Shown here: piece by piece, positions 1 through 30,184 of the stretch
How the letters are laid out: the number at the start of each line of letters is the position of its first letter
Position numbering within the stretch: position 1 is the first letter of the stretch
Assembly (NCBI GenBank): GCA_903813345.2
Contig: CAIIXF020000002.1
Span: forward strand, 30,436,926-30,500,925
DNA: 64,000 bases
DNA from: Owenia fusiformis
Lineage: Eukaryota; Annelida; Polychaeta; Sabellida; Oweniidae
Reading direction: 5' to 3'
Program-made: the position numbers and the translations under genes
The notes under the pieces: generated by a model
The model's database searches: none
Told to the model about the DNA's origin: nothing
The model's input: only the letters and a program-made list of their open reading frames with translations

Positions 1-1488
1 CAAAGCCTAATGCCAGAGCCGTTGTGTTCATGGGGTCCCTCTCAAATATGGCCCCTTCAGATATGGCCCAGTGTGAGGAAATACAGACTTTCTAATAAAT
101 AATCTCTAGATTTTCCTTGTTTGAGGAACTTAGAACAAAGCCTAATGCCAGAGCTGTTGTGTTCATGGGGTCCGTCTCACATATGGCCCCTTCAGATATG
201 GCCCATTGTGAAGCAATACAGACTTTCTCATAAATAATCTCTAGATTTTCCTTGTTTGAGGAACTTAGAACAAAGCCTAATGCCAGAGCCGTTGTGTTCA
301 TGGGGTCCCTCTCACATATGGCCCCTTCAGATATGGCCCATTGTGAAGCAATACAGACTTTCTCATAAATAATCTCTAGATTTTCCTTGTTTGAGGAACT
401 TAGAACAAAGCCTAATGCCAGAGCTGTTGTGTTCATGGGGTCCCTCTCACATATGGCCCCTTCAGATATGGCCCATTGTGAAGCAATACAGACTTTCTCA
501 TAAATAATCTCTAGATTTTCCTTGTTTGAGGAACTTAGAACAAAGCCTAATGCCAGAGCCGTTGTGTTCATGGGGTCCCTCTCACATATGGCCCCTTCAG
601 ATATGGCCCATTGTGAAGCAATACAGACTTTCTCATAAATAATCTCTAGATTTTCCTTGTTTGAGGAACTTAGAACAAAGCCTAATGCCAGAGCCGTTGT
701 GTTCATGGGGTCCCTCTCACATATGGCCCCTTCAGATATGGCCCATTGTGAAGCAATACAGACTTTCTCATAAATAATCTCTAGATTTTCCTTGTTTGAG
801 GAACTTAGAACAAAGCCTAATGCCAGAGCCGTTGTGTTCATGGGGTCCCTCTCACATATGGCCCCTTCAGATATGGCCCATTGTGAAGAAATACAGACTT
901 TCTCATAAATAATCACCAGATTTTCCTTGGTTGAGGAACTTAGAACAAAGCCTAATGCCAGAGCTGTTGTGTTCATGGGGTCCCTCTCACATATGGCCCC
1001 TTCAGATATGGCCCATTGTGAAGCAATACAGACTTTCTCATAAATAATCACTAGATTTTCCTTGTTTGAGGAACTTAGAACAAAGCCTAATGCCAGAGCT
1101 GTTGTGTTCATGGGGTCCCTCTCACATATGGCCCCTTCAGATATGGCCCATTGTGAAGCAATACAGACTTTCTCATAAATAATCTCTAGATTTTCCTTGT
1201 TTGAGGAACTTAGAACAAAGCCTAATGCCAGAGCCGTTGTGTTCATGGGGTCCCTCTCACATATGGCCCCTTCAGATATGGCCCATTGTGAAGCAATACA
1301 GACTTTCTAATAAATAATCACCAGATTTTCCTTGTTTTAGGAACTGAGAATAAAGCCTAATGCTAGAGCTGTTGTTTTCATGGTGGGGTCCCTCTCACAT
1401 ATGGCCCCTTCAGATATGGCCCATTGTGAAGAAATACAGACTTTCTAATAAATAATCACCAGATTTTCCTTGTTTTAGGAACTGAGAA
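1..1488 (+). repeat. 135-bp satellite array derived from a PAICS exon
   Basis: Eleven head-to-tail units begin at 1, 136, 271, 406, 541, 676, 811, 946, 1081, 1216 and 1351. The period is 135 bp, except the last unit, which carries a 3-bp insertion. The array runs off the left edge. On the + strand each unit holds a pyrimidine-rich tract, an AG acceptor and the first ~75 bases of the PAICS exon that starts at 1479; residues such as [12 protein letters not shown] and SDMAHCE are readable. Relative to the true exon the units carry a 15-base insertion after the GS codons and then run into TCA-TAA, with no GT donor. They therefore look like dead exon fragments plus intron. The unit at 1351 is intermediate in sequence (TTTTAG acceptor, ataaagcctaatgctag) between the array and the real exon. 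Because 135 is divisible by three, one minus-strand frame stays open; that frame is a by-product, not a gene. Confidence 0.93.
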
Positions 1489-2737
1489 TAAAGCCTAATG
1501 CTAGAGCAGTTGTATTCATGGGGTCTCCATCAGATATGGCCCATTGTGAGAAAATACAAACCTACTGCGGAGAATATGGTGTACCATGTGAACTGAGAAT
1601 CTCATCTGCACATAAGGGAACTGATGAAACAATGAGCATATTAGCTGATTATGAAGGTATGCACAGATGAAGCCTTAGTAAAGTATGACACATCTGCCGA
1701 ATATGTTTAAGGATTTAAGCCCTCGACTCAGTGCATTGTTTACTGAATCATATCATGAAGGTGTTGTTTCCAAATCTGCATTACAGCGCAGCTGGAAAAC
1801 AGTATTGTTTTAGCCAGAATTTTTTGTGACTGCTAGTAGTTAACTTTGATGACAGTAACAATACTTTTATAATTGCAAACAGGTGGTGACATTTATCATA
1901 AAATATGTGGTGTCTAGCTACTGATAAATAGTTCACTAGTGTTGGATGTATAAAATTGTATGACTAACGTAAAGCCATTTACTATCCTAGGTGAAGGTAT
2001 CCCTACAGTGTTCATAGCAGTAGCTGGACGTAGTAATGGATTGGGACCTGTTCTCTCAGGGAATGCAACCTGGCCAGTGATTAACTGCCCCCCTGTGAAG
2101 GCTGACTGGGGCCCTGAGGACATCTGGTCATCTCTTAGACTACCCTCAGGTATAAATATGTTGTAGATATTTTTTAAATTGTGTTTATTGATATATGCTG
2201 TATATTTTTTTTGAAAAAGTGAGTGAAATGGAAGAGTATAGCCAAGATAAAATTAAATCTGATTTGTCCTTTAACAGGGTCAAATATTTATTTCACTGGG
2301 AAACTTGATGTAGCGCTGTGATAGCACGGCAGAGACAGCTGCCTATCATTACAGTGCACCCATCTGAAAATCCATTTACACCCACTTGAAAATGAGAAAA
2401 ATTGTGAAAATTTGCATATTTTGACCTATATTGGTCTGAATTGTGATTATGAGAATTTTGCACCCACCTGAGAAAAAATCCTGGGGAGATCACTGCATTG
2501 TAGTAAAGGGGATCCACTGCTTATAACATTCTATTATGATGGATGTTTGACAAAGTGTACATTCATATACTTTCAGGCCTGGGTTGTACTACAGTGATTG
2601 CTCCAGAGACAGCCGCACTACAATCTGCTCAGATCCTTGCGCTGAACGACTACATGGTCTGGAGCAAACTGAGAGCGAAGAAACTGAACACATGGATTGG
2701 CTTGAAACGCGCCGATCAGAAAATCAGGCTCGATTGA
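1479..2737 (+). CDS. PAICS: PAICS C-terminal exons (AIR carboxylase domain), 5' end outside window
   Basis: Phosphoribosylaminoimidazole carboxylase / SAICAR synthetase makes CAIR and then SAICAR in cytosolic de novo purine synthesis. Three exons are visible: 1479-1656, 1991-2149 and 2577-2737, ending in TGA. Acceptors are TTTTAG, CCTAG and TTTCAG; donors are G|GTATGC and G|GTATAA. Phases match across both introns, giving 165 residues of the AIRC (PurE class II) domain. Family motifs are clear: GSPSD near the start, [36 protein letters not shown] and the C-terminal [10 protein letters not shown]. The SAICAR synthetase half must lie left of the window, beyond the satellite. The phase of the first visible exon relative to the missing upstream exon cannot be checked. 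No convincing polyadenylation signal was picked out. The satellite sits directly against the acceptor of the first exon, so it is intronic. Confidence 0.95.
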
Positions 2738-3974: not shown

Positions 3975-5900
3975 AAAGTCATCTCCAGTTCACAAGGGGA
4001 TCTTAATGGACTTATCTTGTGCTGGAGTTCTGTGTTTTGCTGGCATCATGGGTACATCCCTGCTCTCCCCCCTTGCTTTCTAGTATAAGGTTCATCTCCA
4101 GTTCACAAGAGGTTCTTAATGAACTTATCTTGTGCTGGAGTTCTGTGTTTTGCTGGCATCATGGGTACATCCCCGCTCTCCCTCCCCCTTTGATTTCTAG
4201 TATAAGATTCATCTCGAGTTCACAAGAGGTTATTAATGAACTTATCTTGTGCTGGAGTTCTTTGTTTTGCTGGCATCATGGGTACATCCCTACTCTCCCT
4301 CCCCACGCTTTCTAGTATAAGATTCATCTCCAGTTCACAAGAGGTTCTTAATTAACTTATCTTGTGCTGGAGTTCTTTGTTTTGCTGGCATCATGGGTAC
4401 ATCCCTACTCTCCTTCCCCCTTGCTTTCTAGTATAAGATTCATCTCCAGTTCACAAGAGGTTCTTAATGAACTTATCTTGTTCTGGAGTTCTGTGTTTTG
4501 CTGGTACCATGAGTACATCCCCGCTCTCCTCCCTTGCTTTCTAGTAAAAGATTCATCTCCAGTTCACAAGAGGTTCTTAATGAACTTATCTTGTGCTGGA
4601 GTTCTGTGTTTTGCTGGCATCATGGGTATATCCCCGCTCTCCCCCCCCCCCCCTTGCTTTCTAGTATTAGATTCATCTTGAGTTCACAAGAGGTTCTTAA
4701 TTAACTTATCTTGTGCTGGAGTTCTGTGTTTTGCTGGCATCATGATTACATCCCTGCTCTCCCTCCCCCTTGCTTTCAAGTATAAGATTCGTCTCCAGTT
4801 CACAAGAGGTTCTTAATGAACTTATCTTGTGCTGGAGTTCTGTGTTTTGCTGGCATCATGAGTACATCCCTGCTCTCCCTCCCCCTTGCTTTCTAGTATT
4901 AGATTCATCTCCAGTTCACAAGAGGTTCTTAATTAACTTATCTTGTGCTGGAGTTCTGTGTTTTGCTGGCATCATGGGTACATCCCTGCTCTCCCTCCCC
5001 CTTGCTTTCTAGTATAAGATTCATCTCCAGTTCACAAGAGGTTCTTAATGAACTTATCTTGTGCTGGAGTTCTGTGTTTTGCTGGTATCATGGGTACATC
5101 CCTGCTCTCCCTCCCCAGTGCTTTCTAGTATAAGATTCATCCCCAGTTCACAAGAGGTTCTTAGTGGACTTATCTTGTGCTGGAGTTCTGTGTTTTGCTG
5201 GTATCATGAGTATATCCCCGCTCTCCCTCCCCCTTGCTTTCTAGTATAAGATTCATCTCCAGTTCACAAGAGGTTCTTATTGAACTTATCTTGTGCTGGA
5301 GTTCTGTGTTTTGCTGGTATCATGAGTATATCCCCGCTCTCCCTCCCCCTTGCTTTATAGTATAAGATTCACCTCCAGTTCACAAGAGGTTCTTAATGAA
5401 CTTATCTTGTGCTGGAGTTCTGTGTTTTGCTGGTATCATGGGTACATCCCTGCTCTCCCTCCCCAATGCTTTCTAGTATAAGATTCATCTCCAGTGTTCA
5501 CAAGATGTTCTTTATGAACTTATCTTGTGCTGGAGTTCTGTGTTTTGCTGGCATCATGGGTACATCCCCGCTCTCCCTCCCCCTTGCTTTCTAGTATAAG
5601 ATTCATCTCCAGTTCACAAGAGGTTCTTAATGGACTTATCTTGTGCTGGAGTTCTGTGTTTTGCTGGCATCATGGGTACATCATTGCTCTCCCTCCCCCA
5701 CACTTTCTAGTATAAGATTCGTCTCCAGTTCACAAGAGGTTCTAAATGAACTTATCTTGTGCTGGAGTTTCGTGTTTAGCTGGCATCATGCGTACATCCC
5801 CCGCCCCTTCACTTTCTACTGTGAGATTCATCTTCAGTTCACAAGAGGTTGATCATGGACTTAAGCTGGAGTTCTACATTTTGCTGGCATCATGTGTATT
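3975..5900 (+). repeat. 116-bp minisatellite array
   Basis: About 16 to 17 imperfect head-to-tail copies of a 116-bp unit. Landmarks in each unit are ctccagttcacaagaggttc, ttaatgaacttatcttgtgc, tggagttctgtgttttgctg and a C-rich tract ending in ctttctagtata. Copies decay at the right end (5800-5930), where the repeat shortens. The period is not a multiple of three and the short open frames switch frame between copies, so it is not coding. A 12-base C run occurs near 4642. Confidence 0.95.
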
Positions 5901-21200: not shown

Positions 21201-23194
21201 TCAAAAAAGATTTTCAACATTTTTTCACAATTTCTTTCAAATATTTTTCCATGGGATAAATGGACAATCCTATGGTTCTTCAAAAAATATCAATTATATC
21301 AACTCATAAATAACAATATCTTACTCATTCGATGCGCTCACTCGTGAAGATATCAATATCCACTCATGGATATAAATGATATTTTCAAAACCATATGATA
21401 TTCCTTTATTATCATGACCTATAAGAGATACGAGCTTTGTGTTTTAAGACTTTCCCAAACATATATCGTGATATATGAATAATTTCAAAGTCCATGACCC
21501 CTTAAAACGCACAGTCCTGAATTTGGAAATAAATTACCACTTTATGAAAGATGCGAGATATAGCTGCATTAGGCCATAAATAGTAGATTCTTTGTTTTGC
21601 GTCCTGGTTAAATCAAAATCATGCAAGGGTACAAGGAAACAAACACAAACTCAAGAAAAACGCGAACTTGTTTGCTGAGGAAATGTATACATTTTATGAG
21701 CATAAAAAGGGATGACAAACCAATTTGCAGCGATTACAAACACATATCTATACATCATATACAATATATTTAAACATAGCTATTATTCAAAGGTAACCAA
21801 AACAAGAAAGTACACAATGTATGCCAAAGTAATCAATAACACTGTCAATTTTGACGCGCATCAAATTGTATGTCATTTCTGATTCCGATTGAACAAAATG
21901 CGATGGTACTTTCAGACCCTTGTGATTGCTTTTTGGATGTGTTTGCTTTTTCTGATTTACTCAAAATAGTGCAAGCAAGGGGACGCAAAAAGAAGCATCT
22001 ACTTCTTATGGCCTTATTCGTACTTATATAGCATTTCGCAGAACTTACAGTGTGTTTGCTATTACTATCAATTCAATTTCATGTGGTTTCTAGATAAATC
22101 GGAAATATATGTTGCGTACCTGACAATACTACACATTTTTTTGTTTTCTTCATGTGATCGAAACATTTTGAATATTCTTCAGTTTCAGTGAAGCCATTCA
22201 CATTAGGTGGTATGTTAGACTTCATGGTAGGCTTTTCAATGTATCCAATTTCTGTTAATAAAACATAGCCATAAATAATAACATATTAGTAATAGTCTTA
22301 CATTACTATCAATTAAGATGAACGGAGATGAAAATGTTTCTGTTCAGTATAGTCATTAACATTTGAAAGATCTAAGATAAAGACGTTTGGTCACCCTGTG
22401 AAATAAATAACGTGGGCAATTTATTGCGAGTCACCTTTCTCCCAGTTTTCAACTGTTTCAGCTAGTTCATTTCTTCCCACATTCCGCAGTGCCTTTGCCA
22501 GAATCTGTTGCGCATTACCATCACTCAATCTGTTTTGCCAACTAACCAATAAATCGAATCTCGAATTCATTAGATTAGTTTTGTTATTAGCTTCAAATGT
22601 CTGAATTTGCCCTTGTGAAAAACCAAGTTCTCCTGCAATAGCTTTGAAAGCATCTCCCATCTCACCAGCTAATTCCATTAACCTCCTTTGGTCAATCCTA
22701 GCTGTTAAATAAAATGTGTTCACCACTTATTCATCCTCCGATCACAGGGCTTCAAAATCCAGAATATATTCTTTCTTTTTACCCCCTGCGATAAGCAGTT
22801 AGCATTTCCTCGATTAAGAACTCGCAATCTGATTGGCTGTCGCAACACTGCGACAGAAATTATGTATAGGTCATAGCGCATGATTAGATCACGTGATTCA
22901 GTTTAATCGGGCGCTTATAAAAATTGGTTATAGCAGGGGATAGAAGGAGGTACGGATTCTGGATACCTGCTTAGGAGGATGCACTTATTAGGCCATAAAC
23001 AAATCGTGGTAAGCCACGCCCACTCCATCTCTATCCTTCTGGGAGAGCATGCAAAATGAAACAAGTGCGATAATCCAATCAGATTTATCAACAAAAGTGC
23101 AATGGCGGCCGGCGTCTCACTTCATATCTTATAAAATTTAATGCTAAATAACCTGCAATTCATTTAAAATGTACTTACCTACTACTTTCGCCAT
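18288..23194 (-). CDS. Death - NB-ARC - TPR protein (APAF1-like STAND ATPase)
   Basis: Five exons in transcript order: 23179-23194, 22435-22701, 22120-22251, 18651-20875, 18288-18428. They sum to 2781 bases (926 residues) with consistent GT-AG junctions. The first exon encodes MAKVV. Residues about 6-94 form a Death domain (ELAGEMGDAFKAIAGELGFS; ETVENWEK). A linker ends at CVVLS. The P-loop GLSGVGKT (about 139-146) is created across the last-but-one large splice. Walker B is YLLIFDNV (about 219-226), followed by IMVTTQS where NB-ARC proteins usually have an arginine (TTR), then a winged-helix-like region and helical repeats ending in TPR-like NWMAALNEYKHAIDRF and YDRAVEGFERAAKEM. A basic KRRR patch lies in the middle. 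Proteins of this build are expected to be cytosolic signal-dependent ATP switches that recruit other Death-domain proteins in innate immunity or cell death; that role is inferred. A partial paralogue lies upstream at 29074-30184. Confidence 0.9.
20876..22119. other. intron of the NB-ARC gene, AT-rich with palindromic repeats
   Basis: Lies between the linker exon and the P-loop exon. It holds AT-rich, partly palindromic blocks (for example tttatcccatgg near 20965 against ccatgggataaa near 21250, and aagtgatactcg near 21086). The two + strand open frames here are low-complexity Phe/Lys/Ile and not credible genes. Confidence 0.5.
22733..22983. mobile_element. MITE with tcatcctccgat-type inverted ends
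   Basis: Left end catcctccgatcacaggg with following aaaatccagaat; right end ggattctggatacctg and taggaggatg, an imperfect inverted match. A shorter relative lies at 39437-39511. Located in intron 1 of the NB-ARC gene, just upstream of the Death exon. No coding capacity. Confidence 0.65.
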
Positions 23195-29073: not shown

Positions 29074-30184
29074 TTAATTTATATTGAAGTTCATTACTTT
29101 ACACCGATTACAAGAACTCTTAGAGAGGCTCTGAAAATGTATTTGACATTTTGAAGGTCCTTGCTGTCGATTTATTTCAAGATGCTTCCCCATTGGCTTC
29201 CCCATTACCTCAGTGAACCCATTTTCATTTAGTGGTGTGTTAGTAGCAGGCGGGGTGGTAGATGTTTCAATATATCCATTTTCTGTTTATAAAACAAATT
29301 ACAGAACACAAAATAATATTCGTACTATTAATACAAAACTATACTGACGTAAGAATGAATATGCAAAATGTTTCCATTTTCCCAATGTGCTCATTGAAAT
29401 GTGAAAGTTCTGGAATAAGGACGTTTTGGTCATATTAGGGACTTCACTTGCTTATGTGAACAATTTATTGCGTTTCACCTTTGTTATCAAAGTTTATCTC
29501 CCACTTCTCAACTGTTTCAGCGAGGTCACTTCTTCCTCCATTCCTCATCGCCTTTGCCAGGATCTGTTGCGCATCACCCTCAGACAATCCGTTCTGCCAG
29601 CTAACCAATGCTTTAAATCTGGATGACTTTGGATCACTTTTGCTAGCTTCAAATGTTTCAATTTCAGCTAATGTAAAGTAAAGTTCTCCTGCAATAGCTA
29701 TGAACTGATCTCCCATCTTGCCAGCTAATTGCAGTAATTTCCTTTCATCGATCCTATCTGTTAAATACAATGTGTTTATCACTTAACTAAAGCATATAAT
29801 GTCACTGAGGTAAAGCTCTTCAAACTGTTGGACCGTCACATAGCAAAAGTTATATCAATGATTTTGGTCTCTTGTGAACTATTCGTTCGCAAATCGTTCG
29901 CTTAGATTTTCTTAACATTCAATGCTGGTACTCATTTGTGACAGAAAGGTGAAGATTGATTCAGGCTACATCTCATGAAATCTTGGAAAAAGAAAACTCG
30001 TAACAAGTTTGAAGAGTTCCATCACAGAAAAAGTCAACTCGGGCATTGCCTCAACAATTTAATCAAAACACGTTTATGAAGCTCCAAGTGTTCTGGGACA
30101 CCAAAGTACATATTCCGACTCTTGCTGAAGTAGTCTGACTAACGTAATTGCATTTAGGCTATACTTACTAATTACTTTCGGCAT
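29074..30184 (-). CDS. Death-domain paralogue of the NB-ARC gene, truncated form
   Basis: Exons in transcript order: 30169-30184 (MPKVI), 29479-29757 (Death domain, LQLAGKMGDQFIAIAGEL, DLAETVEKWE) and 29074-29282 (linker, ending in TAA). They total 504 bases, 167 residues, in phase. Exon sizes (first exon exactly 16 bases), intron phases and flanking intron sequence match the Death/NB-ARC gene at 18288-23194: both introns after the Death exon begin next to caatttattgcg and contain gacgttttgg-like words. The linker keeps NGYIET and NGFTE but then diverges, and no P-loop, Walker B or TPR exon follows. It may be a Death-only adaptor, or may splice onward to the CCHC exon at 27198-27475, or be decaying. 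Confidence 0.7.

Follow-up and report, generated by a model that had tools for sequence, protein, structure and literature searches.

In amphioxus, Adh3, the globins BflGb6 and BflGb9, PGBD5 and other genes contain mirages, arrays in which an intron/exon boundary has been copied in tandem, in the manner of a minisatellite, next to the authentic exon (PMC3087553, PMC3902484). As far as the accessible portions of these reports go, RT-PCR suggests that the lancelet genes concerned are regularly spliced, and the arrays combine a homogenised centre with excluded edges and retain splice signals in many of their copies (PMC3087553, PMC3902484). From earthworm metallothionein, minisatellites of the first intron have been reported, and the accessible text does not describe units derived from an exon (PMC12783039). 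In the open-licence literature on minisatellites and mirages we recognised no case of an exon-edge minisatellite in a protostome. Here we describe a mirage, a 135-bp array at the edge of a PAICS exon, that adds a new gene, and probably a new phylum, to those with such arrays. We consider it very likely that this array is a recurrent, tolerated minisatellite of the lancelet type, which was copied from the PAICS exon, grew by exchange and contains decoy splice sites that are skipped.

The window, by which we mean the whole stretch of 64,000 nucleotides that was analysed (C2:30436926-30500925, GC content 34.8%), contains the AIR-carboxylase half of PAICS, and the SAICAR-synthetase exons of the gene lie in the 10 kb upstream of it (L001). 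Joining eight exons gives a protein of 424 residues with an uninterrupted frame, of which residues 9-422 align with the PAICS structure 2h31 at 603 bits. The first coding exon (L001:6417-6441) has an apparent GC donor (exon end ATG, intron start GCAAGT) that keeps the frame. The array occupies most of the 1727-bp intron that separates the SAICAR-synthetase exons from the first exon for AIR carboxylase (Table 1).

Table 1. Features of the PAICS array and of the exons that follow it, in window positions.
Feature	Position	Strand	Remark
135-bp minisatellite array in PAICS intron, last unit 138 bp	1..1478	+	First full unit starts 10 bases before the window
Nine homogenised core units, starting at 126, 261, 396, 531, 666, 801, 936, 1071 and 1206	126..1340	+	Each behind a decoy acceptor ending in GAG
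Exon-proximal unit of intermediate sequence	1341..1478	+	TTTTAG acceptor before it; 78/87 exon bases match
75-nt block identical to the matching stretch of the last unit	1433..1507	+	Real acceptor and beginning of the exon lie within it
Functional PAICS exon that opens the AIR-carboxylase half	1479..1656	+	Source of the units' exon part
Next PAICS exon	1991..2149	+	
Last PAICS coding exon	2577..2737	+	TGA at its end

TRF reports a single array from 1 to 1542 with a period of 135, 11.4 copies and 96% matches. In each unit the intron's 3' end, with its pyrimidine tract and AG, leads into a copy of exon bases 1-87 that carries an in-frame insertion of 15 nt. With the insertion left out, 74-75 of the 87 exon bases match in ten units, and the last unit, for which a further 3-nt insertion is left out, is closer still, so that identity over the copied exon bases amounts to 85-90%. 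Local scores against the exon are 84 for a core unit and 93 for the last unit, and none of 500 dinucleotide shuffles reaches either value. The resemblance extends into the intron, where 42-46 of the 47 bases before the unit acceptor match those before the real exon in ten of the eleven units, while the unit at the decayed 5' edge of the array has 24 such matches. Translated in the frame set by the exon before the array, all eleven units give a peptide with SDMA.CE.IQTF at its end, closed by an in-frame TAA. These comparisons bear out the preliminary description, which had proposed an array of copies of the PAICS exon and its acceptor, each closed by a stop codon; the exon start was indeed copied, over about 87 bases and not the ~75 given there. 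The sequence thus supports the view that the units come from the PAICS exon with its acceptor.

The tandem units span the intron/exon boundary, the authentic exon adjoins them and its gene is intact. The inner units are homogenised and the edges excluded: mean identity is 97.6% over ten units, and the array edges are diverged. Ahead of the array, at L001:9898-9966 and hence outside the window, lies a decayed unit whose score is 44 with the last unit, 37 with the exon and 27 with a core unit (0/500 shuffles in each case), and the intron farther upstream bears no resemblance to the units. The array had been described as beginning at position 1; it does fill the window from there on, but its first full unit starts 10 bases earlier, and the decayed one precedes that. 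A 404-aa open frame on the minus strand runs through the array (window 92-1306) and was rejected as a by-product of the period, because 135 = 45 x 3 and 32% of shuffled units carry such a frame. Two further arrays flank the gene, one of 97 bp and 12.8 copies upstream (L001:577-1819) and one of 116 bp and 15.7 copies downstream (window 3979-5800), whose unit contains CTTTCTAG and was matched only there; no source exon was found for the downstream array.

The array, the exon and protein domains were searched in an assembly of 498 Mb, in which match counts are lower bounds. Neither the array nor the exon 1479-1656 had another match, the AIRC domain was matched at the PAICS gene alone, as two exons, and no second PAICS copy was found with this domain. 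That the array occupies a single locus is supported by these searches, though not proven by them. Copies at many loci, as in a dispersed or centromeric satellite, were not among the matches, themselves a lower bound, and we therefore prefer the term minisatellite for this single-locus 135-bp array over the satellite of the preliminary description. Arrays are hard to assemble, and the accessible text on the lancelet mirages mentions one that was misassembled in the draft genome (PMC3087553). An assembly artefact is nevertheless extremely improbable here: the units differ in the variants they carry, the array has unique edges, the flanks hold an intact gene and the same structure recurs in other genes, although the copy number could still be wrong.

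The unit next to the real exon had been called intermediate in sequence, and the 75 identical nucleotides that it shares with the exon edge agree with this. In a tree of units and exon it pairs with the exon (support 100/99), which is the sole starred branch, four of the six inner branches being drawn open. Between the core unit and the exon, nine of the 12 changed codons are synonymous, compared to an expected share of 0.24 (P 0.0002); set against a share of 0.38, a rough value that allows for synonymous changes added by the exon itself, the same count gives P 0.01. Of the variants within the ten units that start between -9 and 1206, four alter an amino acid, two are synonymous and one creates a stop. 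The newest variants inside the array thus look like drift, and we infer that the older differences go back to changes in the constrained exon that were then copied into the array. Together with a similar excess in the kinesin decoys described below, we read the synonymous excess as re-seeding from a live exon. Translated decoys would leave the same excess, and this counts against a tolerated minisatellite.

In the sequence of events that we propose, a local tandem duplication would have taken in the 3' end of the PAICS intron and ~87 bases from the start of the AIR-carboxylase exon, and the copy would then have multiplied, probably by unequal exchange, into the 135-bp minisatellite. The inner units would have been homogenised while the outer units drifted, and the unit adjacent to the exon may recently have exchanged sequence with it. 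The preliminary description had inferred outward amplification from the functional exon. The synonymous codons and the 75-nt block speak for such an origin, but both edges are the most diverged parts of the array; since ordinary unequal exchange gives diverged edges too, outward amplification is only partly supported.

Eleven decoy acceptors were counted, where the preliminary description gave at least eleven; ten of them lie inside the window, and AG is kept in every unit. Nine of them are GAG, in keeping with its remark that the units mostly have GAG instead of TAG, and two are TAG (at -9 and 1341), while the real PAICS acceptors are YAG throughout (four CAG and three TAG, 7/7). The Fisher P for this difference, 0.002, overstates independence because the decoys derive from each other by copying. 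The pyrimidine tracts of the units occupy 10-12 of 15 positions, the same as those of the real acceptors. Retained tracts are what one would see if the decoys acted as a splicing brake, binding splicing factors, slowing the true acceptor and lowering PAICS output by copy number; they are, however, expected from copying alone, and we regard a brake as very unlikely. Donor-like GTs in the array score 5/9 in most units and 6/9 at two places, and the six real GT donors of PAICS score 6-8 of 9, so that the best decoy donors equal the two weakest real ones. The earlier statement that the units have no donor is thus roughly right. Most likely the decoys are skipped in splicing, as without a good donor they would not be defined as exons, and in PAICS the change of 9/11 acceptors to GAG would also help skipping.

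The units might alternatively serve as last exons, in which case PAICS would be cut after its SAICAR-synthetase domain and end at the TAA and a poly(A) signal of a unit, tuning the balance of the enzyme. The array sits at the domain junction of PAICS, the stop is in frame in each of its units, AATAAA lies in or beside the TAA in three units and CATAAA in eight, and the synonymous excess would fit as well. Against this, nine of the eleven acceptors are GAG, and AATAAA was rejected as a sign of poly(A) use because it is too common, at 1.39 per kb on the same strand. Two kinds of evidence from other genes, the one favourable and the other not, bear on this possibility, which on balance we hold to be very unlikely.

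The first comes from a kinesin gene on the minus strand (C2:23266359-23269174; L091, L092, L093) in which 17 decoys lie upstream of the real exon. The repeated exon piece, with which the motor domain ends, has 18 matches at a spacing of 158-159 bp among the matches listed, the last of which is the real exon. This array was found in the domain-match listing, outside the screen described below, and 12 of the 18 copies were read as DNA: the real exon and 11 decoys, of which ten are complete. The decoy acceptors are CCATAG, like the real one, in all 11 read, and in each of the ten complete decoys an in-frame stop follows soon after the motor-domain match. Among these ten, six of eight codon variants are synonymous (P 0.004); in a post hoc split into shared and single variants, those common to several decoys are synonymous in 5/5 cases (P 0.0009), two of the five being linked in the same units. 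Intact acceptors and a stop soon after the motor domain are features that alternative last exons would share. The preliminary description had inferred that splicing discriminates between TTTGAG and TTTTAG, which as a general rule is contradicted by the kinesin decoys. Because these keep acceptors like the real one, the lack of a good donor suggests itself as a better common reason for silent decoys than the GAG change alone. What counts against skipping is that two PAICS decoys and the 11 kinesin decoys read have good acceptors and that the best decoy donors are as good as the two weakest real ones. It is also conceivable, though we give it a very low probability, that exon-edge minisatellites are continually re-seeded and that the units in kinesin and PAICS are redundant alternative last exons whose copy number tunes the isoform ratio; if so, shortened proteins would be made from the units of kinesin (17 decoys) and of PAICS (two good acceptors).

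The second kind of evidence is a screen for exon-edge repeats at 84 gene loci from domain searches, comprising 25 loci out of 25 listed matches for ABC transporters, 30 out of 92 for myosins and 29 out of 144 for kinesins. The edges used are those of the domain matches instead of mapped exon ends, so that cases can be missed; the PAICS exon, as the positive control, passes the screen. A direct repeat across the exon edge occurs in 3/84 loci, several of the 84 overlapping or sharing the same or paralogous genes, and all three repeats are on the acceptor side, with none on the donor side among the loci screened. A myosin locus (L053, 1365-1560) has two copies across the exon edge with 79% identity over 102 columns, an ABC-transporter locus (L010, near 1501-1750) has two copies at the exon edge with 74% over 132 columns, and its neighbouring paralogue (L009, near 1501-1750) has short exon-edge repeats. 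Since L009 and L010 are neighbouring paralogues, the three loci amount to two independent cases. Straddling of an exon edge in 3/84 loci compares with 189/1680 random flank intervals (Fisher P 0.03, with intervals within a locus non-independent), and direct repeats cover 9.0% of the flanks and 1.4% of the exon matches. These figures indicate that arrays arise widely in the genome and are rarer at exons. Alternative last exons fit this poorly, as exon-edge arrays are depleted rather than enriched and a cut product makes little sense at the myosin and ABC-transporter copies. Arrays with long units are frequent among the loci scanned. At C9:37986009-37994334, twelve myosin-head exon matches with model positions within 18-84 follow one another at irregular spacing, possibly a large cluster of mutually exclusive exons.

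Returning to the reading as a tolerated minisatellite, we infer its growth mechanism, the correct splicing of PAICS and the neutrality of the units. The genome of the host contains a bantam-like hairpin TGAGATCATTGTGAAAACTGATT, which scores 53.2 bits, below the Rfam gathering score of 61; to our knowledge, bantam is specific to protostomes. GFP genes are numerous in lancelets, and searches with Pfam PF01353 and with an approximate lancelet-derived fluorescent protein query, run with no positive control, gave no match in this genome. On these grounds amphioxus is an unlikely host. Echinoderm bindin had no match either, an equally weak negative. Mitochondrial COX1, sought for a test of the genetic code, had no match in the assembly. 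For the annelid Owenia fusiformis, the accessible part of the genome report gives 505.8 Mb and 12 chromosome-scale scaffolds (PMC9977687). Elsewhere in the window, two similar Death-domain exons lie on the minus strand (22421-22726 and 29465-29782), and protein-kinase and doublecortin-domain exons on the same strand (36377-58039) may form one gene, which we take to be possibly DCLK-like.

Should the host be a protostome, minisatellites at exon edges would arise in distant animals and not be a peculiarity of lancelets. The arrays constitute natural experiments on how the spliceosome ignores many near-perfect decoy acceptors, for which the kinesin array is the sharper test, its acceptors matching the real one in every copy read, and they are possible raw material for new introns, a model that the accessible text proposes for the lancelet globins (PMC3087553).

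Among described systems, clusters of mutually exclusive exons, with Dscam as the type case, likewise consist of local copies of one exon within an intron. In such clusters every copy has an acceptor, a donor and an open frame, a combination absent from the PAICS units, which cannot be internal exons because they lack a good donor and contain an in-frame stop. The duplicated, mutually exclusive G-alpha exons of lancelets are, by the accessible account, a different phenomenon (PMC5896119). The internal tandem repeats of human segmental duplications resemble the PAICS array in that minisatellite growth can reach exon-intron boundaries and change the structure of genes, and boundary repeats there have been linked to new introns; as far as the accessible text goes, they differ in belonging to recent primate duplicates, in units of ~30 bp on average and in lying half in coding sequence (PMC2812944). 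Compared with the lancelet mirages, the gene here is PAICS and the host probably a protostome. The closest counterpart is BflGb6, whose array, as far as its accessible description goes, is likewise on the acceptor side, joining the 3' end of an intron to the 5' part of an exon in units of 150-160 bp; the PAICS units end in an in-frame stop, a feature for which BflGb6 was not compared, and the 11 units of PAICS and 17 decoys of kinesin stand against three and six in the two BflGb6 haplotypes.
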